64,000 bases of DNA, taken from Mycetocola reblochoni REB411. GTDB lineage: Bacteria; Actinomycetota; Actinomycetes; Actinomycetales; Microbacteriaceae. The notes beneath the pieces are model-generated. The model worked only from the letters and a program-made list of their open reading frames with translations. It ran no database searches and had not been told where the DNA came from. This document shows, piece after piece, positions 24,348 to 58,749 of this stretch. Location of the stretch: assembly GCF_900163835.1 (NCBI RefSeq), contig NZ_FUKR01000058.1:1-64000 (forward strand), given 5' to 3'. Position 1 is the first letter of the stretch. Every line of letters starts with the position of its first letter. The translations under genes were made by a program, and so were the position numbers.

Positions 24348-25139
24348 GTGAGCATCCGCAGCGACTACCCCCTGACGACCGCGATCGCGAGCCGGCTGTT
24401 CGCGCCGGGCGTCGTGGACTCCACCTCGGACGAGCTGGCGCGTCGGCTGGTCGACGACCCGGCGCTCCCCGACGGCACGACCGTGGTCAGCGCGGCGCAG
24501 CGCGGTGGACGCGGGCGTCTGGGTCGCTCGTGGTCGGCACCCGACGGCACGATGCTCGCCCTGTCCACCCTCGTCGACGTCGGATCTATCCCGGCGTCGC
24601 TGCTCGGCTGGCTGCCGCTGCTCAGCGGCGTCGCGGTCGCCGACGCCCTCGAGGACGTCGCTCCGGGGATCGGCGCGCGCCTCAAGTGGCCCAACGACGT
24701 CCTCGTGTCCGGCGGCAAGATCGCCGGGATCCTTTGTGAGCTCCGCGAGGGGTCGCCGCTCAGGGCGATCGTCGGGATCGGGATCAACACCGGCATGACC
24801 GAGGATCAGCGTCCGGTGTCGACGGCGGGATCGCTGGCGATGGAGGGGGTCGACGGCGTTCCCGATGACCGCCTGGCCAGCGCGGTGCTCGCGCGGCTGG
24901 GCGCGCTCGTCGGCGACTGGCGCGACGCCGGGGGGGACCCGGTCGGCTCGGGGATCGCCGCGCGCGTGGACTCCCTCTGCCAGACCCTCGGGCTGCGCGT
25001 GCGCGCGGAGCTGCCGTCGGCTGAGCTGATGGGCACGGCGCTGCGCATCGACGGCGAGGGGCGGCTCGTCATCGGGGTCGACGGCGCGGCCGAACAGGCG
25101 GTGTCGGCGGCGGACATCACCCATCTGCGCGCGCTCTGA
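24348..25139 (+). CDS. birA: Biotin--[acetyl-CoA-carboxylase] ligase
   Basis: A 263-aa class I biotin protein ligase without a DNA-binding domain. It activates biotin as biotinyl-AMP and attaches it to the BCCP domain of AccA3. Visible motifs are [11 protein letters not shown], the biotin/ATP loop [28 protein letters not shown] and VGIGINTG, followed by a small C-terminal SH3-like domain. The GTG start at 24348 is supported by the -10 box 6 nt upstream; the upstream open frame lacks similarity. It is divergent from accD-accE, keeping the carboxylase and its modifying enzyme together. Confidence 0.94.
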
Positions 25140-42597: not shown

Positions 42598-43482
42598 GTG
42601 ACTACCGTTGACCTGAGTGAGTTCAGGACGCCCGGACGCGGTCGAGGCATCCTCGACGTCTTCCGCTGGCACTATCTGCTCCGTCTGCTCGTCAGAAAAG
42701 GCACCCAGACCCGCTACCGCAACTCCGCCCTTGGATGGGGCTGGTCGTATGTGAAGCCGGCAGCCCAGTTCGGCGTCTACTACGTCGTGATGGGCATCAT
42801 CCTCGAGCTGCACCGCAACATTCCGCTCTTCGCGGTGTACCTGTTCTCCGGCATTGTGATGGTGAACTTCTTCAACGAGTCGTTCTCGAACGCCACCAAG
42901 TCGATCACCGACAACCGTGCGCTGGTGAAGAAGATCTACCTTCCACGTGAGCTGTTCCCCATCGCCGCCGTGATCGGCGCGTTCATCCACTTCCTGCCCC
43001 AGGCCGCGATCCTGCTGGTCGTGTGCCTGCTGATGGGCTGGACGCCGTCGTTAATCGGGCTCGCCGCGATCGTCGTCGCCATCGTCATCGTCGCGGTGAC
43101 GGCGCTCGGCCTCGGCATGTTCTTCGGCGCCCTGAACGTCGCGTACCGCGACGCGCAGAACTTCGTCGAGATCATCCAGGTGTTCTCCACCTGGTCCGTC
43201 CCCGTGCTCTACACCTGGCACATGGTCGCCGACAAGGCGCCGGAGTGGCTGTTCAACATCTACATGGTGAACCCGCTCGCCGCCGCCGTCGAGCTGTTCC
43301 ACCGCGGGATGTGGCGGCCCGTCGCCGAGCGCGCGATCGCGACGGACGGCGGCGAGCTGTTCGCCGGCCCGGCCAACCTCTGGCTGAATGCCGGCATCGG
43401 CCTGGCCATCGCCGTCGTGTTCCTGCTCGCCGGGCAGGCCGTGTTCCGCCGCTTCGAGCGCCGCTTCGCCCAGGACCTGTGA
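42598..43482 (+). CDS. Polysaccharide/teichoic-acid ABC exporter permease (TarG/Wzm-like)
   Basis: A 294-aa ABC-2 type permease with six hydrophobic segments. The N-terminal amphipathic region includes LLRLLVRKGTQTRYRNSALGWGWSYVKP, a segment (residues 22-50) typical of Wzm/TagG/KpsM proteins. It should move a finished undecaprenyl-linked polymer across the membrane with the ATPase encoded next. The GTG start is preceded by GAAAGAGTGACC. The stop codon and the next ATG share a base (TGATG). Confidence 0.93.
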   Translation: MTTVDLSEFRTPGRGRGILDVFRWHYLLRLLVRKGTQTRYRNSALGWGWSYVKPAAQFGVYYVVMGIILELHRNIPLFAVYLFSGIVMVNFFNESFSNATKSITDNRALVKKIYLPRELFPIAAVIGAFIHFLPQAAILLVVCLLMGWTPSLIGLAAIVVAIVIVAVTALGLGMFFGALNVAYRDAQNFVEIIQVFSTWSVPVLYTWHMVADKAPEWLFNIYMVNPLAAAVELFHRGMWRPVAERAIATDGGELFAGPANLWLNAGIGLAIAVVFLLAGQAVFRRFERRFAQDL

Positions 43483-44255
43483 TGACGAACGTGTCCGAGA
43501 CCACAGAAAGCACCCCAGCCGTGGCAGAGAACAAGCCGAGCATCATCGTCGACCACGTCCGCAAGGACTTCCTGCTGCGCAAGTCGCACTCCTTCAAGGA
43601 GGCCTTCATCGGCTGGATCCGCGGCAAGGAGGTCAAGGCGAAGAAGTTCCAGGCGCTCGACGACGTCAGCTTCATCATCAACGAGGGCGAGTCCGTCGCC
43701 ATCATGGGCTACAACGGCTCCGGCAAGTCGACGATGCTGAAGCTCATCTCGGGCGTCCTCGAGCCGGATGCGGGCAAGATCCTCATCCGGGGGCGCCTCG
43801 CCGGGCTGATCGAGGTCGGCGCGGGCTTCCACCCGGAGCTCTCCGGTCGCGAGAACGTCTACCTGAACGCCGCGATCCTCGGCATGCAGAAGGAGGAGAT
43901 CGACAAGCGCTTCGACGACATCGTCGCCTTCAGCGAGATCGAGGCCTTCATCGACCAGGAGGTCAAGCACTACTCCTCCGGAATGTTCATGCGGCTGGCG
44001 TTCTCCGTCGCGATCCACACGGAGCTCGACATCCTGCTCGTCGACGAGATCCTCTCCGTCGGCGACGCCCCCTTCAAGGAGAAGTGCCGCGCCAAGATCC
44101 GCGAGCTCGCCGGTCAGGGCAAGACGATGGTCATCGTCAGCCACGACCAGCGCATGATGAAGGAGCTCTGCGACCGCGGCATCGTCATCAAGAAGGGCAA
44201 GCAGGTCTACGACGGCCCTGTGGCGGACGCCATCGAGGTCATGCAGCAGAAGTAG
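43482..44255 (+). CDS. Polysaccharide/teichoic-acid ABC exporter ATPase (TarH/Wzt-like)
   Basis: A 257-aa ABC ATPase. Walker A is GYNGSGKST. The family-specific LAGLIEVGAGFHPELSGRENVYLN follows (residues about 105-128). The signature is HYSSGMFMRLAFSVA, Walker B is ILLVDEILSVGD, and the switch His is in VSHDQ. There is no C-terminal carbohydrate-binding domain as in O-antigen Wzt, so it is closer to TagH/KpsT types that do not read the glycan end. It is coupled to the permease. A perfect 20-bp hairpin follows its stop. Confidence 0.93.
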   Translation: MTNVSETTESTPAVAENKPSIIVDHVRKDFLLRKSHSFKEAFIGWIRGKEVKAKKFQALDDVSFIINEGESVAIMGYNGSGKSTMLKLISGVLEPDAGKILIRGRLAGLIEVGAGFHPELSGRENVYLNAAILGMQKEEIDKRFDDIVAFSEIEAFIDQEVKHYSSGMFMRLAFSVAIHTELDILLVDEILSVGDAPFKEKCRAKIRELAGQGKTMVIVSHDQRMMKELCDRGIVIKKGKQVYDGPVADAIEVMQQK

Positions 44256-46362: not shown

Positions 46363-47227
46363 GCGGGCTCCTCTTGTGCTGCACGAGTCGGTGGCCGTCG
46401 AGGACACGGCGTGGTCGACGGGGAAGGTTCGGGTGAATTCGAATCTAACAGGTGGGGCTGCGGCCGACTGCGCGATTCGCCGCTCCGCTTCGCAGTCACC
46501 ATGAAAGCGGCCGATCCCAGGCCGAGTTCGACGGGCGCGTGACAAAATCGACTCTGTGAACCCCGAGCAAACGACAGATGAATCCGCGCGTGCTGATCCC
46601 GCCCCCATCCTCGTCAGTGTCGTCATCCCCGTGTTCAATCCGGGCCCGCACATGGCCGACCTCATCGCGAGCCTGCGCAGGCAGAGCATCGGCCTCGACC
46701 GGATGGAGGCGATCTTCGTCGACGACGGCTCGACCGACGGCAGCGGCGAGGAGCTGGAACGCCTCGCCGAGCAGGAGGACTGGGTGACCGTCGTCCGCCA
46801 GCCGAACTCGGGCTGGCCGGGCAAGCCGCGCAACGTCGGGATGGACCTGGCCAGGGGCGAGTTCGTCATGTTCAGCGACCAAGACGACTGGCTGGGCGAC
46901 GAGGCACTCGAGCGCATGCGGGACTACGGCGTCGCCAACGGCGCCGACGTGATCGTCGGCAAGATGGTCGGGATCCGCCGCACCGTCCCCAAGAAGCTGT
47001 TCGAGAAGGACATCCCCTACGCCAGCGTGAGCAACACGCTCCTCGCCGACTCCATGACGCCGCACAAGATGTTCCGTGCGAGCTTCCTCGCCGCCACGGG
47101 CCTCCGGTTCGCCGAGGGCAAGCGCCGGCTCGAGGACCACCTGTTCGTCACCGAGGCGTACCTGCGTGCCAGGAACGTGTCCGTGCTCTCCAGCTACGAC
47201 TGCTACTTCCACATCTCGCGCGACGAC

Positions 47228-47234
47228 GGGGGGG
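47228..47234 (+). other. Frameshift site 1 (seven-G run)
   Basis: Six G would keep the frame from RDDGG into NAGFQRFDARGYY. The seventh G sends translation into a non-homologous tail ending at 47587. Confidence 0.8.
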
Positions 47235-48672
47235 AACGCGGGGTTCCAGCGCTTCGACGCCCGCGGTTACTACACCAACCTCCGCGAGGCGATGGACGTC
47301 CTCGACACCTATCTGCCCCCTGGTCGCGACCACGACGTCTTCATGAACCGCTGGGTCAGGGTCGAGATCCTCGGGCGGCTCCGCGGCACCCTCCTGGGCA
47401 AGCTCGACGACGAGGGACGAACCGCGCTCGTCACCGAGGCTCGGCGGACTCTGCGCGAGCGCGTCCCCGTCACCGCGGACGCCCGTCTCTCGAGCCCGGC
47501 CGACCGGTTCGCCGTCGCCATCCTCCGACACGGCACCGTTCAGGAGGCGTCGTCACTGCGAACGCTCGCGTCGAACCTGGACCCTGAACTGGTGTTGAGC
47601 GCTTCGGCGTCGGGTGTGGCGGAAGGCGTTCTCACAGTGGTCGTCGACGGCTCCAGGAGGAACGCTGCAGAACTCACCGTCCGTGAGGCTGCTGGAGGCT
47701 CCCTCAGCGCGGAGACACTTGCCGTGCTCGAGGCCGAGGGCTGCGGTGGCGACGCGCTGGCTCCTGATCAGCTGCACTGGGCGTTCGGAGCGACGTCGAC
47801 ACGTGAAGCCGGGCGCTACGTCATGGACGCAAGTCACCGGTTCCGCCCGGAGTACTTCTCCGCGGACACGGTCCGGGGGACCAGCGCGCTGGGCCCGCTG
47901 CGGCCCCGTGTTCTGCTCGGCCGCGCCGGAAGCACGGACGATGCCGATCGTGTCAACATGGAGGCGAGCGCCGCCGGGACCCCCGCGGCGACCGTACTGT
48001 CGGCTGAGGACCAGCGACGGGCTCTGATCCGCGGCTACCTGGACCACTTCAACCGGTGGAGCGGGCGGCTGCACGGGCTCTCCCTCGCCGCGGTGGTCGC
48101 CGGCGTGGTGAGTTTGGCGAGCGGCTCCGCCCTCGTCGCCACCTTGAGCTCCATCGTCGTGCTCGCCCTGACCGTCGCCGCTCAGCAGCGTGCCGCCTGG
48201 CTGGGCCGGTTTCCTGCCCCGAGGCTGATTCTGCTCCTGGCGCCCGCGGTCGCCTTTACCTCCACAGGGAACACCGTGTCCAGCCTCGTGATCGTGGCGA
48301 TGGCTCTGCTCATCACCGTCGAGGCGCTGCTCAACCAGCCCGCGAACAAGCTGCCGCGTATTCCGATGGCCAATGTGCCCGGGATGACCGATCTGCCGAC
48401 GCTGAAGCGCACCTTCAAGGTGGGGTACGTCTTGCTGGTTGTGGCGGAGGCCGCTGTGATCGCGCTCCTGGCGTACGGACTGCCGCTGCTTGCGATCGTG
48501 CCGCTCCTTGCCGGTATCGCGCTGCTGGGGTACATCGCTTTCCGGATCAAGGCCGTGCGCGCGCAGCACCACCGCATGGTCGTCGCGAAGTTCGACCGGC
48601 TTGCCGAGCTGGAGCCCCGCTTCCTCGTGCATTGGGACGGCCCCCTGGCCGGTACCTATCAGGTGGGGATGT

Positions 48673-48677
48673 GGGGG
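48673..48677 (+). other. Frameshift site 2 (five-G run)
   Basis: Adding one G joins GTYQVGMWG to DALRATKLPFAIVVRND and restores the original frame for the glycerophosphotransferase domain. As given, the middle frame runs out at 48773. Confidence 0.8.
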
Positions 48678-49721
48678 ACGCACTCCGGGCAACCAAGCTG
48701 CCGTTTGCGATCGTGGTGCGCAATGACCAGCACGTCAGAGCGATGTCCGACGCGACGAACGGCCTGCCCGTGATCCACATCGGCGACTCCGTCGACGTCG
48801 ATCGCTCGATTCTGCCCAGCCTGCACGCCATCGTGTACGTCAACACCGCGGTGAAAAACGCGCACTACATTCGCTTCACCCATCTGCGTCAGATCCAGAT
48901 CAACCACGGTGACAGTGACAAACCCGCGAGCGCGAGCAAGGCATTTCGCATGTTCGATGTGAACATGGTCGCGGGTCAGGCCGCCGTCGACCGCTTCGCC
49001 CACTACGGCGTCCGCGTTCCGCGCGAACTCGTTCGCATCGTCGGCCGGCCCCAGGTCGCCGCGATCGAGACGGCCAAGCAGAGTTCGGTCGACACGGTGC
49101 TCTATGCGCCGACCTGGGCGGGATTCTTCGGTGACTCCGACTTCAGTTCGCTCCGGCAGGGGGAAGCCATCGTGGGTGCCCTCCTCGCGCGAGGCAAGAC
49201 CGTGATCTTCCGGCCGCATAGCTTCACGGAGAGGAATCCTGAGCTCGCTCAAGCGGCGGAACGAATCCGCGCGATGCTGCGAGCTGACTCTGAAACCTCT
49301 CATCGCGGTCACCTGTTCGGGCGAATCGCTGAGAGCGAGATGGGGATCGTCGACTGCTTCAATCGATCCGACGCCATGATCGCCGACGTCTCAAGTATCG
49401 TGACCGACTACCTGTACTCGGAGAAGCCCATGGCCATGGTGTCGGCCAATACGGATGTCGCGGCATTCCGGGAGTCGTTCCCCGTGTCCCGCAGCCTGTA
49501 CGTCGTTGATCAGGAGCTGCGCAACTTCGAGAGCGTCCTCAATGAGCTCGCGGTGACCGACACCGGTAGGCTTGCGCGGCTCGCGGCACGTCGTTACTAC
49601 CTGGGCGAGTTCGCACGACGGAGCTACGCGAGTGACTTCGTCACGGCATTGCGGGAGGAAGTGTTCCGGCGCTGAGCCTCGGTTTGGCCGGGGCGAGGGT
49701 TCAACCGTGGTCACGCCGCGA

Positions 49722-51236
49722 TCAAGGGCGACCCGAACGGCGACTACGTGTGCTCAGTAGACGCTTCGCAGCTCGTTTTCTAAGCGCAGAGATGTACTCG
49801 TCGTTTTCTCGGGCGCGTCGTGAGACTGACGTGACCTCGTACTTCAACGTCTGGACCACTTGCTCGAGCTCGCTGTCATCGGAAGGCTTGGGCGGGCATA
49901 TCGGTTTCGGGGCGAAGGGGGGAACGTAACGGTCCGCCGCGGGTGACTTCGTCGATCCACACAGCCAGCGAAGACGTGACGCGAGCTCGGCTCCGTTCGA
50001 GGAGCGCACGGGCGTAGCAGCAGGCGCGAGTTGCGCGGTGCGGAGCTTCTCGTCAAAGGCCTCATTCTGGTTTCCCGGCTGGTGGACATGACGGAGCCCG
50101 TTTCTTTCGAGGAAGTCGATCCAGCGCTCGAAGGTGGGCTGCCGCCGGGTATTGAGCTCACTAAAGTCCGCGCGGTTGAATAAGGACTCTGCGGTGCATT
50201 CACCGATACCGTTTCGACCCACCGGTTCAGCGGGCATGCCGTGATATGAGGCGAGTTCGGCGGTACGGGAGTCGAAGGTCAGAACTACGCTCGGGGTGCC
50301 TGCCGCGAGGGCTGCGATGTTGCCGTGGATGCGCGTGCCGAACGCGAAGTCGCGCGTAGCCATGAACTCATGCCAGGTGCGGGCGTCGACGAAGAACCGG
50401 ACCTGGCCGTCGTGGTGGTAGGGGTGATCGAGCGTGCCGGGCAGGTCCTTGTTCCATCCGGCAATCGGTTCCCCCCAGAGCAGAAGCCCGAGCTCCCGGT
50501 GTTCTTGGGGGACGAAGACGATATCGGTGAACCGCTTGTGGTGTCGCCGCAACATCTCCGCCGACCCCGGCACGGTCGGGGTGATGTTCACCGCGAGCTT
50601 GCTCGTCGGGTTGAGGCTATTGAGCTTCTTCTCGATCGTGGGGGCATTGCCGCGGAAGTCAAACATGGAGGGACAACCGATGACGTCGATGTGGTCGTCG
50701 CCGAAGCCCAGCGATGCCAAGTAGTCCTTCGTGATCTCCCCGCGCACGCCGACGCTGGCTGAACGATCGAGCACGGCGGACACGAACGCGCGCACGTCCT
50801 CGTTCAAGGCGTCGCTCACCCCGCTGAGATCGCCGCTTGAAGGCAGCTGTGCTCCCACCCCGGTTACCGTGACCGGAATGTCGAGCTCGGTGACGACCGT
50901 TGTGAGCCGTCTCAGCGCGGGGCGGAATTGCTCTCGAAACGCGTTGGCGAGGGGGACGACGAATCCGTTGAATTCATCCTTTATACGGGATGCGTGGGCG
51001 CGATCGCTGCCTGTGCGCTCGGTCGTGAAAGAATCCGGCACCAGATCGATATTCGGAACACTGAGGGTCCGGAACACCGACTCCGCGAAAAGCAGATTTC
51101 CGCTGTTCGCGCCGAAAACTCCGTTGGGCCCGTGGGCGAAACTCGCTTCCAGTGAAAGCGTCTGCGTCGGGTCCTTGGGAGCGCGGATCAGGATCCTGTG
51201 AGTCGGCATGGTGCGTGAGCCTACCGGCTCAGTCAC
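49722..51236 (-). CDS. Polysaccharide pyruvyl transferase family protein
   Basis: A 504-aa protein of the PS_pyruv_trans family, which adds ketal pyruvate groups from phosphoenolpyruvate to wall or capsular sugars. The central SVGVRGEITKDYLASLG and the diagnostic FAFGTRIHGNIAALAAGTPSVVLTFD (residues about 315-340) are present, plus NGVFGANSGNLLF near the N-terminus. A basic coiled tail extends beyond the domain. The GTG at 51236 is preferred because GGAGGGAAG lies about 7 nt upstream; a later ATG at 51209 would give 495 aa. Pyruvylated teichoic acids are known in actinobacteria, so the context fits. Confidence 0.87.
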   Translation of the reverse strand: MTEPVGSRTMPTHRILIRAPKDPTQTLSLEASFAHGPNGVFGANSGNLLFAESVFRTLSVPNIDLVPDSFTTERTGSDRAHASRIKDEFNGFVVPLANAFREQFRPALRRLTTVVTELDIPVTVTGVGAQLPSSGDLSGVSDALNEDVRAFVSAVLDRSASVGVRGEITKDYLASLGFGDDHIDVIGCPSMFDFRGNAPTIEKKLNSLNPTSKLAVNITPTVPGSAEMLRRHHKRFTDIVFVPQEHRELGLLLWGEPIAGWNKDLPGTLDHPYHHDGQVRFFVDARTWHEFMATRDFAFGTRIHGNIAALAAGTPSVVLTFDSRTAELASYHGMPAEPVGRNGIGECTAESLFNRADFSELNTRRQPTFERWIDFLERNGLRHVHQPGNQNEAFDEKLRTAQLAPAATPVRSSNGAELASRLRWLCGSTKSPAADRYVPPFAPKPICPPKPSDDSELEQVVQTLKYEVTSVSRRARENDEYISALRKRAAKRLLSTRSRRSGRP

Positions 51237-51334
51237 GGAATTGCTTCCCTCCGCAGAGGCGGCCTGGTGGCTGGGTTGTTGATTCCTAATGCATACGCCG
51301 GTACCCGCTGCGGTGCCGCGACCTCACCGTGGAG

Positions 51335-51340
51335 TAAGCT
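51335..51340 (+). promoter_or_regulatory. -10 box for the large GT2-TagF gene
   Basis: TAAGCT in the 178-nt divergent gap with the pyruvyltransferase gene, giving a leader of about 68 nt with AGGAGA before the GTG at 51415. Confidence 0.4.
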
Positions 51341-51414
51341 GGCCAACGGCAACGTCTTCGCCCTGTCGCGAGCGTTGGCGACCACCAACCCCTGACACAT
51401 CGAACAGGAGACGC

Positions 51415-54400
51415 GTGAAGCTGCCTGCCGTAGTGCACGATGCACTCGCACACCCCCGTCTGCTGCCTGCGCGTGAGAGCGTCCGGGCGGCGAGGAACTG
51501 GGCCATCGGAGTCGGCCGCCGGATGGGGGTGCGTCCCGATCGATTCCGCGCGGGGCTGCTCAGCGTTGTCGTTCCGGCGTATGGTGTCGAGGCGTACATC
51601 GCCGAGACGCTCGGTTCGTTGAGTAAACAGCGCTACAGCAATATCGAGATCATCGTCGTCGACGACGGTTCTCCGGACGCGAGCGCTCATATTGCTCGGA
51701 AGATGGCTCGCTCCGACCCAAGAATTCGTGTTATCTCGCAAAAGAACCAGGGGCTGAGCGGGGCACGAAACACCGGTATCTCTGCTGCCAACGGCGAGTA
51801 TCTTGCGTTCCTCGACGGAGATGATTTCGTCGACCGGCACGCTTACTCCGACGCGATCGGAGCGCTTGTCGAATCAGGGTCGGATTTCGCTGTTATGCCA
51901 TACCGGCGAGAAAAGAACGGAACATTCCCATCGGCCGCGCCTTGGATTCGATCGGCGCATCAGGTGACGCGGCTCGGCGTAACTATCGATGAGTTCCCGG
52001 ACATTCTCGTCAACGCCGTGGCATGGAGCAAGGTGTACCGTAGGGACTTCTGGGACGCCAGTGGCTTTCAGTTTCCCCAGGGTGTGCTCTACGAGGACCA
52101 GGCCGTCTCGACGGCTGCGTATACGGCAGCGCGGTCGTTCGATGTGCTTAGCCGGGTCAGTATCAACTGGCGTATCCGGGCCGATCAGACCTCCATCACC
52201 CAGCAGATCACTCAGCCGCGGAACATCCGGGATCACGGCGCCGCTGTCCAAGAGTCCCTGCAAATCCTTCGGGAGGCCGGCCGTGAGGAAGTCCACGACG
52301 AGCGCCTGCGACAGGTCCTCAACAACAACATGGGTGAGTTCCTCCTCCAGCTGCGCGGCATCGGCGGCGAAGCATGGACCGAGTTCCAGCACATGGTCAA
52401 GGGGCTCGTAGATCTCACCGGGGAGCGGGGCCTTTGGTCTCAGATCGATGCGCGTAAAAAGGTGCTCCTCAGCCTGGTCGTCGCAGGCGAACGAGACGCG
52501 GCGCTAGGCTTCTTGCGAGACGGCGGATGGCACGCCGACCACTTTCCCGCTCGAGCGGCCAACGCGGAACTACACGCCGATGGCGCACCATACGCAGCTG
52601 TCGAGCAGTTGGTACCACCATTTGCAATGGAGCTCAGTGCCACAGAGACCCAGGCCACCGTCGAGGTGCGGTCAGTGGAACGCGTCGACGATGACCTGTA
52701 CCGCCTGCGGGCGATTGCCTACATCAACCGCATCGCAGGGAACGACTACACGTTCGCGGCCGCTCTCGTCGATCACCGCGGAGGGACGGGGACCCCGCTC
52801 GAGGTGCGTCGGGGGGAGAGCCTCGGTGATGTCGTCGGTCACACGCGACGCTATGCGGACATGTCGGATGCATCGATCGAGATTGATCTCCCCCTCGAAG
52901 CGCTGGCCGGTACAGGAACACTCGCGCTGCACGTTGAACTGGGATGGCACGGTGTTGCTCGCTCGACGACGGCGAGATTGTGGGGGAATGCCAGCGTTCC
53001 GCGTCCGGGATTCAACGAGCAGGGCCTTATAACGGAGTTCGTCAGGAGCGTGGGCGGCGAACTGGAGATCAGGCAGAGTCGGCGCGACTTTGTCGTCCGT
53101 GCCGCCAAGATCGATGGTGAGGACGTCACGGTTTCCCTGGTGGCTGCCGCGCAGCCGGAACGTCTCATCCTCGTGGACCGCGGCGACCGCTTCGGGCTTG
53201 AGCGAGTGAATGTTCCTCTCCGTGCCGTAGGTGATGGAACGTGGACCGCACGGTTCCGACTGCCGCGTCGGCCAGGGGCCGACCGCTGTACGCACAACTA
53301 CAATGTCACGGTTCGGGACGCCGCCGGAAAAGACCATCGTGCCGCGATTGAGCCCGGCGTGGAGCAAAACGGGAAAGCCGTTGAGGTGGTGTCGCGCTAC
53401 ACGACGCGCGCGACCGGAGAGCTGTCGGATACGGAGACTTCCGCAGACGTGCTGGTGCGGCATCACCGCGGTCGCGTCTTCGCGGATGAGGTGCGCCTGA
53501 CGCCCGACGCGCTTGTCGTCGACGCGTCGTTCGTTCCCGGCACACGACTCATTGCCGCCTCCATCATCTCAGGTTCGCTGACCTTTCCCGTTCCGATCGA
53601 GCGCGTCTCTGACACGGCAGTCCGGCTCGTTATTCCGCGAAACGTACCGGGAGCCGACGGCGTGGTCAGGCCGTTGAAGTCGGGGGACTACACGGTGATG
53701 TTCCGGACTGCGACGGGCAAGGTCGAGCTTTCGCCAGCAACGGCGATCATCCAGTCCCTCTCCGTGAGGTTTGACGACGGCGAACACTCCTACGTTCTGT
53801 TCGGTGCCTCGCGGGGATCGGCGGGACCTCGAGCCGTCCGGCTTGGCGTCGAGCCTTATCGGCGCACCGATGAGCGCGGCGGGGGAAATCAGTGGCGTCT
53901 GAAGGACGAGTACCGGCACGAACGGCGACCGCTGCGGCGGGCCATACTGTTCCGCAATCTCTACAGCGAAGCCGCGAACGACAGCGCGCTCGCCGTTCAT
54001 AACGAGCTACTTAGACGTGGAAGCGACATTGAACGCGTGTGGGCGGTGCGAGACCGCTCGGTCCCGGTCCCGGACGGCGCAGTGACTGTGGTCGAGGGAA
54101 CCAGGGAGTATTTCGAGGCGTTCGCGCTTTCGCAGTATGTGATGGTGAACGTGCACCAGCCCGACTGGTTCTTCAAGCGGGATGAGCAGACGCTTATCCA
54201 GACTTTTCACGGTTATCCGTTCAAATTCAACGGGCGTGAGTGGTGGGATCGACTCGATTTCGGTGCCGAAAGAAAGGAGTCCTTCTTCCGGCGGGCGGAC
54301 GAATGGGACATCCTGGTCTCTCCTGCCCCATACGCCAGTGAGCACCTTCAGACGTTCTATCGCCCGGAACGCACGGAGTTCCCCGAGATGATCGAGCTGG

Positions 54401-55044
54401 GGTACCCGAGAAACGATGTTCTGGTTCGCGGCGACGCGGAGCGACGCGATCGCGCTCGCCGGGTGCTCGGTATCGGCCCAAACCAGCGCGCGATTCTTTA
54501 CGCGCCCACGTTTAGGGACTACGTGTCCGGTGACGATATGAGCGCCGATATGGTGGCGCTTCTCGACTACGCCCAACTGGCTAAGCGGTTGGGTCCGGGC
54601 TACGTCGTGCTGTTGCGTGGGCACCCGTTCAACGCCCGCCGGGGGACCAAGGTCCCTGCGACGGTCATCAACGTGACGGATTATCCGGACATCAACGATC
54701 TCATCCTCGCGTCGGACATCGGTGTTCTCGACTATTCGTCGCTCCGGTTCGACTACGCGTTGACGGATAAGCCTATGGTGTTCTTCGATCCCGACCGTGA
54801 CCGCTACTTCAGCTACCGGCAGGGTTTCATCCCGTATGACGGCACCGCGCCGGGCCCGCACGTCGATACCTTGTCGTCGCTGACCTCGGTGGTCAAAGAT
54901 CCGCCCGCCTCTGCACTCCACGGCTCTGACGAGCGCAAGGAGTTCCGGGAGCGCTTCACGCCCCTTGAGGACGGAAGAGCGGCTAGCCGTCTCGTTGACG
55001 CGATGCTCGAGATAGGGGCGAGTAAAGCTGCCGACCAGCGATAG
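51415..55044 (+). CDS. Bifunctional GT2 / TagF-type polyol-phosphate polymerase
   Basis: A 1209-aa enzyme. Residues about 50-270 form a GT2 domain (SVVVPAYGVEAYI, VVDDGSPDAS, QGLSGARNTGI, DGDDFVD). A beta-rich middle region (430-800) follows. The C-terminal domain (about 830-1190) is CDP-glycerol:poly(glycerophosphate) glycerophosphotransferase, with TFHGYPFKF near 930, ILYAPTFRDY, LRGHPFNARR and GVLDYSSLRFDYALTDKPMVFF near 1100. It may both prime and extend a glycerol- or ribitol-phosphate chain, or assemble a mixed sugar/polyol-phosphate repeat. The GTG start has AGGAGA 5 nt upstream. The large upstream open frame is not coding. Base composition is lower in GC than in flanking housekeeping genes. 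Confidence 0.88.
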   Translation: MKLPAVVHDALAHPRLLPARESVRAARNWAIGVGRRMGVRPDRFRAGLLSVVVPAYGVEAYIAETLGSLSKQRYSNIEIIVVDDGSPDASAHIARKMARSDPRIRVISQKNQGLSGARNTGISAANGEYLAFLDGDDFVDRHAYSDAIGALVESGSDFAVMPYRREKNGTFPSAAPWIRSAHQVTRLGVTIDEFPDILVNAVAWSKVYRRDFWDASGFQFPQGVLYEDQAVSTAAYTAARSFDVLSRVSINWRIRADQTSITQQITQPRNIRDHGAAVQESLQILREAGREEVHDERLRQVLNNNMGEFLLQLRGIGGEAWTEFQHMVKGLVDLTGERGLWSQIDARKKVLLSLVVAGERDAALGFLRDGGWHADHFPARAANAELHADGAPYAAVEQLVPPFAMELSATETQATVEVRSVERVDDDLYRLRAIAYINRIAGNDYTFAAALVDHRGGTGTPLEVRRGESLGDVVGHTRRYADMSDASIEIDLPLEALAGTGTLALHVELGWHGVARSTTARLWGNASVPRPGFNEQGLITEFVRSVGGELEIRQSRRDFVVRAAKIDGEDVTVSLVAAAQPERLILVDRGDRFGLERVNVPLRAVGDGTWTARFRLPRRPGADRCTHNYNVTVRDAAGKDHRAAIEPGVEQNGKAVEVVSRYTTRATGELSDTETSADVLVRHHRGRVFADEVRLTPDALVVDASFVPGTRLIAASIISGSLTFPVPIERVSDTAVRLVIPRNVPGADGVVRPLKSGDYTVMFRTATGKVELSPATAIIQSLSVRFDDGEHSYVLFGASRGSAGPRAVRLGVEPYRRTDERGGGNQWRLKDEYRHERRPLRRAILFRNLYSEAANDSALAVHNELLRRGSDIERVWAVRDRSVPVPDGAVTVVEGTREYFEAFALSQYVMVNVHQPDWFFKRDEQTLIQTFHGYPFKFNGREWWDRLDFGAERKESFFRRADEWDILVSPAPYASEHLQTFYRPERTEFPEMIELGYPRNDVLVRGDAERRDRARRVLGIGPNQRAILYAPTFRDYVSGDDMSADMVALLDYAQLAKRLGPGYVVLLRGHPFNARRGTKVPATVINVTDYPDINDLILASDIGVLDYSSLRFDYALTDKPMVFFDPDRDRYFSYRQGFIPYDGTAPGPHVDTLSSLTSVVKDPPASALHGSDERKEFRERFTPLEDGRAASRLVDAMLEIGASKAADQR

Positions 55045-55167
55045 CGCGCGGCTGGCACGTCGGGTGCGCCCCCTGTGGATGGACTCGTAGAGGAGCTGGG
55101 GCGAGTTGTTGGCGGCGACACGGGCGCCGGCGCACATCGCGGGGTTTTGGTTTGGCGCCGGGCGGGG

Positions 55168-55197
55168 CGCCGCGCAGGGACCCGGGCGGCGTTTTTT
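55168..55197 (+). terminator. Rho-independent terminator after the GT2-TagF gene
   Basis: A 6-bp stem CGCCGC/GCGGCG, whose loop has an inner GGG/CCC pairing, followed by six T. It is the only classical T-run terminator seen in the window, 123 nt past the stop. Confidence 0.7.
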
Positions 55198-55313
55198 GGC
55201 AGGTGGCCCCGGGGCGCTACGCGCACTCGTTCGAGGCCCTCGACACGCATGACGCGCAATCGCGCATCCCCGCACGGAGTTCCATCGGCACACGATCGAC
55301 GAGGTTTTACGAG

Positions 55314-55331
55314 GCACAATGGTTATTGTGC
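55314..55331. promoter_or_regulatory. Inverted repeat upstream of the second GT2 gene
   Basis: GCACAAT and ATTGTGC flank GGTT, in an AT-rich patch (preceded by GGTTTTACGAG) about 85 nt before the next start. It could be an operator or part of a promoter. No regulator can be named. Confidence 0.4.
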
Positions 55332-55413
55332 TCCGTGTCGGTGGCAGCCAGAACCAGTCGGGAACATACACTTAAATCCAGCGGCAGGCCCAATTGTGAT
55401 AAAGCGAGATTCT

Positions 55414-57228
55414 ATGGAACCGAAAGTCAGCGTAGTTGTTTCTACTCACAACTCGCAGCATGATGTCCACCGTCTGGATGAATCACTGCGAGGCCAGACA
55501 CTCCCGCAGAGTGATTTTGAGGTGATCTATGTTGACGATGGATCGACGGACGCCACATTGGAAATTTTGAACGAGCTCGCCGCGTCATTCGACAACACGC
55601 ACGTGATCTCGATCGATAACTCGGGTTGGCCGTGTCGGCCGCGAAATGTGGGCATCGATGCTGCTCGAGGTGAGTATGTGGCGATCATGGATGATGACGA
55701 CGTCTTTTTTCCGGATGCGCTGCGGGCTGCGTACGAGTTTGGGAAATCAAACAATTCTGATGTCGTTAACCCGAAAGAGTCTCACTCCGAGGTTCCGTCC
55801 TGGTCGATGGCTGTGTTTAAGAAAAACGTGCCGAATGCTCGTAATGTGCTAGCACCTTTTTCACTGATGGCTCTTAATCCGCGCAAATTGTACCGGCGAC
55901 AGTTCCTTAATGATCATCAGTTGCGCTTCCTGGATAACGGCGAGCGAGTGCCGTTTGAGGATGCTCTCTTTAATATGGCCGTCTTTGCTAAAGCTTCGGT
56001 CGTGTCAATTCTGGCGGACACCCCATACGCGGTGTGGGTGCAGAGCGGGCAGGCGAGTATTAGTTCGACTGTGGTGCTGGAGCCCGAAGAGCGGTTCAAG
56101 GGGCAGGAACGCGTGCTTCGTACGATTACGGAAACCACCGAGGCCGGGAGTGTCCAGCGAGACTCTGCGTTGCTGTATGTGCACCATTCTCGGGGTGCCG
56201 GGTTTTTCTCACGTCACATTGCGCGGAAAACCGACGACGAATTAAGTCACCTGGTTGAGCTGGCTCATACGCACACAATCCCCTATCTGGATCCCCATCT
56301 CGATGACCTATTAGCGAGTTCGTTGCACGACCGCAGCACTCTCTTGCGTGCCCGGAAGAACGCCGAGTTGCGTGAAATAGCGGCCTGGGACGAGGAAGTC
56401 GTTGGCAGGACGACGCTGACCAGAATGCGGTCGACGCCGCAAGGTGGCGTTAGACTGTCTCTCCGCACCGTGTGGCGGCGTTCGGGAGAGCGGAAACCGG
56501 GGATCTATCGCGATGAGGCCGGGGTCTTGCGCAGAGCGTACCCGGAGGCAGTCCGGGGCGCTCTCGGTCGCGAGGTGGCTGGCTTAGACCGGGATATTCA
56601 AGATGCGACGGTGCGACTCGGAGTTCGGCATCGTTCCCAACCGGTGACCTGGACATTCGACACGAGGATCACTAGCAAGACTCTGGAGGGGCCCGACCAA
56701 GATCTCGACCTTGTCGTCGAATCTGAAGTGGAGCTGACCGGTCTCGAAACCTCAGCGGGTAATGTTCTGAACGGCGGGAGTTGGGTTCTCAATAGCTTTA
56801 CGGCGCTGTTCCAGTACACACAGCAGCGTCCGCTCCGGGTTGGGGATAGTACGATCACCAGGGCATACACCGCTGCGGATGGTCGCGTGATGACGGTTGC
56901 TCGTGTCGCTTCCGGTTATGAGCTGACGGTCGCACGCCTCACGGTCACTCTCGATAGGTCCGGGGGTGCACCGATGATTCGTTTTGTCGAGACCGACATC
57001 GCTCCGATCAAAGGGAAGATCTTGATGGGAAGGAAACTAGTGTTTCCGTGGGGCGATCGTTTGATGGTATTCGCTCAGCGCAGCGTGGCCGCACGGCGAC
57101 TGGTGCGGTTGCTGGCTCGCGCTCGCTGGACAGCAGTAGACCGGACTGGTGGCATAACTAGCGTGGCTGCTCCATCGCGATTGGGTGCAACAGTTTTTAT
57201 CCAGGGGATCCCGTACGCCATCAGCTGA
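55414..57228 (+). CDS. GT2 glycosyltransferase with long C-terminal region
   Basis: A 604-aa protein. The N-terminal GT2 domain (residues 1 to about 230) has KVSVVVSTHNSQHDV, VDDGSTDAT, NSGWPCRPRNVGIDAARGEY and MDDDDVF. These resemble the GT2 half of the frameshifted gene at 46556. The rest is helical, then beta-rich (from about 380), without a TagF domain. It may be a single-domain relative of the neighbouring polymerases. The ATG has only a weak AGCGAGA upstream; an in-frame GTG at 55396 is possible. This gene is the most AT-rich in the window, suggesting a recent outside origin. Confidence 0.83.
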   Translation: MEPKVSVVVSTHNSQHDVHRLDESLRGQTLPQSDFEVIYVDDGSTDATLEILNELAASFDNTHVISIDNSGWPCRPRNVGIDAARGEYVAIMDDDDVFFPDALRAAYEFGKSNNSDVVNPKESHSEVPSWSMAVFKKNVPNARNVLAPFSLMALNPRKLYRRQFLNDHQLRFLDNGERVPFEDALFNMAVFAKASVVSILADTPYAVWVQSGQASISSTVVLEPEERFKGQERVLRTITETTEAGSVQRDSALLYVHHSRGAGFFSRHIARKTDDELSHLVELAHTHTIPYLDPHLDDLLASSLHDRSTLLRARKNAELREIAAWDEEVVGRTTLTRMRSTPQGGVRLSLRTVWRRSGERKPGIYRDEAGVLRRAYPEAVRGALGREVAGLDRDIQDATVRLGVRHRSQPVTWTFDTRITSKTLEGPDQDLDLVVESEVELTGLETSAGNVLNGGSWVLNSFTALFQYTQQRPLRVGDSTITRAYTAADGRVMTVARVASGYELTVARLTVTLDRSGGAPMIRFVETDIAPIKGKILMGRKLVFPWGDRLMVFAQRSVAARRLVRLLARARWTAVDRTGGITSVAAPSRLGATVFIQGIPYAIS

Positions 57229-57247
57229 CGCGATTGCCGTGAAACTT

Positions 57248-57285
57248 GTCGGGCCCGTCCGCTCCAGGGAGCGAACGGGCCCGAC
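57248..57285. terminator. Bidirectional hairpin terminator
   Basis: An 11-bp GTCGGGCCCGT/ACGGGCCCGAC stem, one mismatch, then five further pairs and a short CAGG loop. It sits between two convergent stop codons (57228 and 57302). Confidence 0.8.
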
Positions 57286-57301
57286 ACGTAGGCGGGACCA
57301 G

Positions 57302-58675
57302 CTACCGCACGGTGACGTCGACGACCTGCCCGGTCAGCTCGCTGAGCACCGTGCGCGCAGTCGCCTCGGCGACCTTCTCCGGCGTGAGCAGGGTGTCGGC
57401 GGGCTCGTCGCCGAAGGCGGCCGTCCGCATCGGGGTGGCGGTGCGCTGCGGGTTGATGCAGTTCACGCTGACGCCGCTGTCGGCCCACTCCTCGCTGAGC
57501 GCCTGGGTGAGGTTGACCACGCCGGCCTTCGTCGCGGAGTACAGGCTGTATCCGGCACGCCCGCGCGTGTACGAGCTGGAGGTGAACAGCACGAGGTCGC
57601 CGTGGCTCGCCTCGAGGTGGGGGTACACCTCCCGCGCGATGATGGCGGGCGCCAGCAGGTTCGTGTTGATGGTCTTGACCATGTCGCGCTTCTTGATGGT
57701 GGTCAGCGGGGCGATGGTGAGCACGCCCGCGGTGATGACGACGATGTCGATGCCGCCGAGCTCGGCGACGGCCGCGTCGACGGCCTTCCGGATGCTCTTG
57801 CGGGAGCGCACGTCGGTCCCCGTGGCGGAGCGGCTGAAGGTTTTCACGACGGCGCCGTTCTCGGCGAAGCCCTCCGCGATCGACAGCCCGATGCCGTAGG
57901 AGCCGCCGAAGACGACGACGCGCTTGCCGGCGAGGTCCGCGAGGTCGACGGTGTCCGCATCGACGCCCTTCTTGCGCATCTGGAAGATCTTGTCGGCGAA
58001 GGCGATGTCGATCGCCTCCGTGACCTTCATGTTCTCGGAGCTGCCCTCGACCACCTTGATCGGCGTGCCGGGCAGGTAGTTGAACACGACGCCGCAGTCG
58101 TCGGTCGCGGCGAAGTCCGGGTCCTCCGCGGCCTTGGCGTAGGCGGCCCTGATCGTCCCGGCGCGGAATGCCTGCGGGGTCTGGCCCCTGCGGAGCACGG
58201 CGCGGGCCGGCATCTGGTCGATGCAGTCGTCGGCGTCGACGCGGATGATGGTGTCGGCGGAGACGATCGCGGTATCGACGGCGGAGTAGTCGTCGAGCGC
58301 GTCGATGCAGTCGTCGATGATGCGGTCGTCGATGAAGGGGCGGACGGCGTCGTGGAAGAGCACCTTCGTGTCGTCGGCGCCGACGGCGTCGAGGGCGCGC
58401 AGCGTGGTGTCGTTGCGGGTGGCACCGCCGGGCAGGGTGCGGCTGAGCTTGTGAAGCCGGTCGCGGTCGATGACCTTCTCGAGCTCGGGGATGGAGTCCT
58501 CGTGCATCATGACGATGACCTCGTCGATGCGGGGGTGGTCGTTGATGGTCTCCAGCGTGTGCACCATGATCGGCTTGCCCGCGATGCGGATCAGCTGCTT
58601 GGGGATGCCGAGGCCCACGCGCTCGCCGACGCCTCCGGCGAGCACCACGGCGATGTTCTTGGACGACGACGTCAC
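57302..58675 (-). CDS. Bcs1-like bifunctional ribitol-5-phosphate cytidylyltransferase / reductase
   Basis: A 457-aa fusion. Residues 1 to about 225 are an IspD/TarI-type cytidylyltransferase (VVLAGGVGERVGLGIPKQL, LPGGATRNDTT, FHDAVRPFI, RRGQTPQAF). Residues about 235-457 are a short-chain dehydrogenase (VVVFGGSYGIGLSIAEGFA, VVITAGVL, YSLYSATKAG with YxxxK, NCINPQRTATPMR). This architecture is that of Haemophilus Bcs1, which reduces ribulose-5-phosphate and makes CDP-ribitol. It would supply the TagF-type enzymes nearby. GTG at 58675 is chosen because AAAGGA lies 8 nt upstream; a GTG two codons earlier leaves only 2 nt. Confidence 0.9.
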   Translation of the reverse strand: MTSSSKNIAVVLAGGVGERVGLGIPKQLIRIAGKPIMVHTLETINDHPRIDEVIVMMHEDSIPELEKVIDRDRLHKLSRTLPGGATRNDTTLRALDAVGADDTKVLFHDAVRPFIDDRIIDDCIDALDDYSAVDTAIVSADTIIRVDADDCIDQMPARAVLRRGQTPQAFRAGTIRAAYAKAAEDPDFAATDDCGVVFNYLPGTPIKVVEGSSENMKVTEAIDIAFADKIFQMRKKGVDADTVDLADLAGKRVVVFGGSYGIGLSIAEGFAENGAVVKTFSRSATGTDVRSRKSIRKAVDAAVAELGGIDIVVITAGVLTIAPLTTIKKRDMVKTINTNLLAPAIIAREVYPHLEASHGDLVLFTSSSYTRGRAGYSLYSATKAGVVNLTQALSEEWADSGVSVNCINPQRTATPMRTAAFGDEPADTLLTPEKVAEATARTVLSELTGQVVDVTVR

Positions 58676-58749
58676 GAGCACGGTCCTTTCTGCACGACGG
58701 GCCGGGGCGCGCCGTGGATGTTACGGAAGGTGAATAATCCGTGAACAGT

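Follow-up and report, generated by a model that had tools for sequence, protein, structure and literature searches.

Two opposite single-base frame changes in adjoining wall-polymer genes of Mycetocola reblochoni REB411

A long coding stretch in a wall-polymer gene cluster of Mycetocola reblochoni REB411 changes reading frame twice within about 3 kb, which raises the question of whether the genes are broken, switched or simply misread. The window, by which we mean the whole 64,000-nt stretch that was analyzed (positions 1 to 64,000 of contig NZ_FUKR01000058.1), comes from a 2.91-Mb draft assembly of 80 contigs, the sole genome of its genus in the comparison set. Based on the sequence and the translations of its open reading frames (ORFs), two frame changes lie within 46556–49675, a +1 change first and a −1 change second. 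The locus is made up of the following features.

46556–47230, plus strand: TarS-like glycosyltransferase, GT2 catalytic domain, read in the first frame from a GTG start (Pfam Glycos_transf_2, 9.3e-26)
47228–47234, plus strand: run of seven G (G7), first frame change, +1 (sequence, codon usage, profile scan)
47235–47957, plus strand: same glycosyltransferase, TarS linker and C-terminal part, read in the middle frame (Pfam TarS_linker, 1.7e-21; alignment with relatives)
47585–47587, plus strand: stop that ends the first frame downstream of the shift (ORF translation)
47958–48670, plus strand: N-terminal, apparently membrane-spanning part of a Glyphos_transf protein, middle frame (alignment of relatives)
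48673–48677, plus strand: run of five G (G5), favored second frame change, −1, uncertain to about 48704 (sequence, codon usage, profile scan)
48677–49675, plus strand: catalytic Glyphos_transf part with stop, first frame again (Pfam Glyphos_transf, 2e-8)

The initial annotation had reported two opposite single-base shifts in a wall-polymer cluster, and this is borne out by codon usage and profile scoring. A homology-free Viterbi decoding of codon usage switches frame at 47225/47235 and 48665/48666, and a second run does so at 47225/47235 and 48663/48707. For the profile scans we used 73 relatives of the Glyphos_transf part and, for the GT2 part, the 20 rows over 100 aa out of 21 collected. At the first site the best placements fall inside G7 and lose no codon (three points tie at 378.7 bits; the next scores 376.2), so the +1 change assigned to a seven-G run is confirmed and placed exactly. 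At the second site the best placement is 48674/48677, with one codon incomplete (306.6 bits); the next scores 304.2, 2.4 bits lower, and points as far as 48701/48704 score less than 7 bits below the best. The five-G run named for the −1 change does exist and, given these scores, is the likely site, but its placement is favored rather than proved, within a range of about 48674–48704. That the first and last parts share a frame and the middle differs is also seen in the ORFs and in the three pieces matched by Pfam (Glycos_transf_2, TarS_linker and Glyphos_transf).

The two shifts had been called compensating, which is true of their arithmetic only. After the first shift, translation from the GTG at 46556 stops after 343 codons. 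Because that frame terminates at 47587, the second indel, 1.44 kb beyond the first, cannot rescue it. The first shift was also considered as a recombination breakpoint; this was rejected, since the drop in third-position GC starts near 47415–47594 and not at 47235.

The locus had further been interpreted as one giant wall-polymer synthase of about 1040 residues. If the shifts are ignored 1040 codons are indeed open, but the comparison with relatives gives a single protein no support. A query with the single protein against genome contigs found no relative. A scan of public genomes with a seven-sequence alignment (A1: the window row and six relatives) found 262 relatives, of which 80 were kept, corresponding to 78 distinct loci. 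Among these 78, none has a GT2 piece within the Glyphos_transf ORF (the one flagged, L067, carries it on the opposite strand), which goes against the giant synthase; contig edges cut the upstream part of three (L079, L119 and L140). No GT2 domain was detected by Pfam in the longest relative ORFs that were scanned (L120, L121, L131, L144 and L067; L082, L113 and L133 were left out). A same-strand GT2 match lies upstream in 8 of the 78 (L068, L075, L087, L092, L095, L120, L129 and L144), a set that includes one poor assembly (L075) and one locus whose ORF was not recovered (L144). In L068 the GT2 and Glyphos_transf genes share a 4-base overlap; in L087, L092, L095, L120 and L129 the first listed start is 59–130 nt beyond the GT2 stop. 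The ATG at 47958 in the window coincides with the start of standalone relatives.

Unlike in relatives, no stop lies between the glycosyltransferase and Glyphos_transf parts in the window (47900–47960). Either the two parts are fused here, or the separating stop was lost, which would be a third lesion. A fusion is possible because no stop divides the parts, and fusions of this kind are known, since the paralogue at 51289–55044 carries GT2 and Glyphos_transf in one ORF.

The first of the two genes encodes, judging from its sequence, a TarS-like glycosyltransferase with a putative role in wall teichoic acid sugar transfer. Its GT2 part matches PDB entries 8bz4 (1.5e-34) and 5tz8 (1.6e-32), and is 43–52% identical to ten loci of the same family (L002–L007 and L010–L013), which are 10 of the 12 loci recruited by the middle piece in the family search. 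In none of the ten is there a Glyphos_transf match within about 3.3 kb. The order of GT2 followed by TarS linker is that of TarS-type wall teichoic acid glycosyltransferases, whose solved relatives include the two PDB entries. In contrast to those enzymes, the window copy is interrupted by a frame change that puts the TarS linker in another frame than GT2. A Pfam scan of the window pieces found no match to TarS_C1.

The second gene resembles the TagF/TarL-like CDP-glycerol/ribitol phosphotransferases: it has a Glyphos_transf match, and profile comparison relates it to Cps3D and TarL chains. The Pfam match scores 34.1 bits against a curated cut-off of 22.1 and is partial (positions 194–294 of 367). 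Unlike typical family members, the window copy gives a divergent match, and an apparent membrane part precedes the catalytic part with the frame change between them. Membrane segments were judged by eye from a hydrophobic stretch in the translation of the middle piece, and a Pfam scan of 47958–48670 assigned this putative membrane part to no family. The catalytic part is 56% identical to L067 and 53% to L068, and retains all columns that are invariant in alignment A1, where invariance was calculated with the window row included.

Three causes had been suggested for the double frame change. Of these, a real loss agrees best with the data, with a local artefact of sequencing or assembly as its main rival; nothing positive points to phase variation. 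We therefore favor, at a probability of about 0.5, the reading that slippage has recently and genuinely inactivated a pair of accessory wall-polymer genes. Two adjoining genes, the TarS-like glycosyltransferase and the Glyphos_transf protein, would each have gained or lost one base at, or next to, a short run of G through replication slips left uncorrected in an organism that appears to have NucS and no MutS. The first indel would have ended glycosyltransferase function and left the remainder weakly constrained, and under such weak constraint the second could be tolerated, with intact neighboring paralogues keeping the polymer going. The loss would be recent, because no further stop interrupts the pieces and the invariant Glyphos_transf residues persist. 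A plausible cause is selection against wall decoration, putatively by phage or in the laboratory. The genes around the locus are listed below.

42598–43482, plus strand: ABC-2 type permease, candidate polymer exporter (Pfam ABC2_membrane, 4.6e-17)
43485–44255, plus strand: ABC transporter ATPase, given as the stretch to the stop, start not fixed (Pfam ABC_tran, 5.4e-21)
49722–51236, minus strand: polysaccharide pyruvyl transferase (Pfam scan)
51289–55044, plus strand: open GT2 and Glyphos_transf paralogue, 1251 aa (Pfam scan)
55411–57228, plus strand: open GT2 and TarS_linker paralogue (Pfam scan)
57302–58681, minus strand: IspD-like cytidylyltransferase and short-chain dehydrogenase, putative ribitol activation (Pfam scan)

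On their domain content these genes form a predicted wall teichoic acid-like cluster, in which we take the cytidylyltransferase–dehydrogenase gene to be a TarI/TarJ-like activation gene. Across the whole genome there are three Glyphos_transf matches and two TarS_linker matches. The locus has intact paralogues, the candidate ABC exporter and the putative ribitol-activation gene as neighbors, so that the cell might tolerate its loss. PADLOC returned no defence-system match.

Slippage in G runs is to be expected from what the genome encodes. A profile search of the genome for MutS_V gave no match (11 of 14 controls were positive; MutL was outside the search), NucS_C is present, and NucS is reported to be unable to correct indels (PMC8228993). 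The same review notes that proofreading by actinobacterial DnaE may itself suppress most short indels. In mycobacteria the frequency of frameshifts rises strongly with run length, according to PMC10159617. We counted the G/C runs in coding segments totalling 462,060 nt and set them against the expectation from 20 synonymous redraws. There are 136 runs of 6 (252.8 expected), 2 runs of 7 (61.9 expected) and 1 run of 8 or more (28.9 expected); the G7 at 47228 falls in a gap that separates two segments and is not one of those two runs of 7. It is as if long coding runs had been purged, and so strong a deficit at lengths of 7 and above suggests a hazard from slippage throughout this genome. Another G7 run, at 24930–24936, lies inside a coding segment that remains in frame.

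The alternative with the best standing is that both indels were miscalled in a poorly covered stretch and that the genes are intact in the cell. We regard this as possible, though the less probable explanation. Both sites are at or near G runs, which are classic for miscalls, the source is an 80-contig draft, and codon usage and conserved residues resemble those of working genes. An error-prone assembly should betray itself elsewhere, and we scanned 541 kb of the genome (the window, L015–L028 and L145–L164), comprising 464,585 coding bases and 287 same-strand boundaries, under strict settings. Four candidates were found: the two window sites, L156:17786 and L162:4172. Two of the four sit at this one locus, more than chance would give. 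The other two resemble, on inspection by eye, the tail of an ordinary gene and a linker rich in Ala, and look spurious. The scan recovered 226 of 300 planted indels (75%). With looser settings there were 8 candidates in 273 kb, 3 of which change frame, and 13 in 541 kb; judgement by eye covered those in L156, L162, L155, L021, L152 and L160, leaving out the L158 pair and L156:4241 (overlaps of 43–55 nt).

The same scan of Brachybacterium sp. Z12, with its own codon model, returned 56 candidates in 224,901 coding bases (231 boundaries), so that an error-ridden assembly would reveal itself. Assembly-wide homopolymer error is thus rejected for the present genome, with 4 candidates in 464,585 coding bases, and the draft is clean as a whole. 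The Z12 sequence, a complete genome (CP060496; L171–L183 and L075), seems to contain many indel errors. Its GT2 genes (L075) also change frame, which first suggested convergent breakage across lineages; this idea was dropped, since the number of candidates, 56, points to a poor assembly.

What argues against a local error is that the rest of the 465 kb of coding sequence yielded no convincing frameshift at a detection rate of 75%, that the 136 coding runs of 6 are free of such a lesion, and that two chance errors within 1.44 kb are improbable unless the stretch is locally bad. If the indels are errors after all, the locus shows that a single site in an otherwise clean draft can be misread. If they are real, as we prefer, they add one example of a surface-polymer gene inactivated through slippage in a high-GC, MutS-less actinobacterium. 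The type of lesion is already known, and the loss is probably real but ordinary.

A third explanation is phase variation, in which reversible slippage in the G runs toggles decoration of the wall polymer and the assembly caught the off state. Surface glycosyltransferases are common among phase-variable genes, and the combination of NucS with no MutS match would suit such a switch. We nevertheless consider it unlikely. The runs are short and lie in mid-gene, and both separate sites would need to revert. At the first site relatives read RDDGGNA or similar, and a run of 6 or more G occurs in 0 of the 9 relatives in which the pattern was found (20 loci searched). At the second, 0 of 59 pattern matches have a run above 5, the longest run being 3 in 36, 4 in 20 and 5 in 3. 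Nothing marks G7 as a conserved switch, since none of the relatives checked has the run.

The closest parallels come from other actinobacteria without MutS. PMC11898584 describes the 7-G tract of mycobacterial glpK as both highly mutagenic and phase-variable, and pairs of opposite indels, termed frameshift scars, are described for M. tuberculosis in PMC8339072. As here, these are one-base indels of opposite sign at short G tracts. However, the scars with two indels in M. tuberculosis are mostly less than 10 nt apart (PMC8339072), whereas the window sites are 1440 nt apart, the tract is not conserved in relatives, and the data are from one strain with no reversion seen. A literature search on phase variation or homopolymer frameshifts in wall teichoic acid genes, mostly at the level of search results, returned no case from Microbacteriaceae. 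The more specific proposal, that a MutS-less member of this family varies its wall teichoic acid decoration through newly arisen short G runs, as a two-gene switch caught off, is slightly more doubtful again.

Least probable by far is that the frames are joined by ribosomal slippage or that the pieces act as separate proteins: separate starts do exist (ATG 47958, 271 aa to the stop at 48773, and ATG 48743, 310 aa), but inspection by eye revealed no clear ribosome-binding site ahead of the internal starts, the 310-aa piece would be without an anchor, relatives do without recoding, and a search downstream of both sites for the stimulatory RNA structure of programmed frameshifting found none, the folding being no better than that of shuffled sequences (z = 0.13 at the first site and −0.96 at the second).

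Beyond this gene pair, the two long genes in 51289–57228 have third-position GC contents of 0.72 and 0.62, at the bottom of the genome's range, and the codon model labelled 54971–57307 noncoding. The stretch 51289–57228 is possibly acquired DNA.
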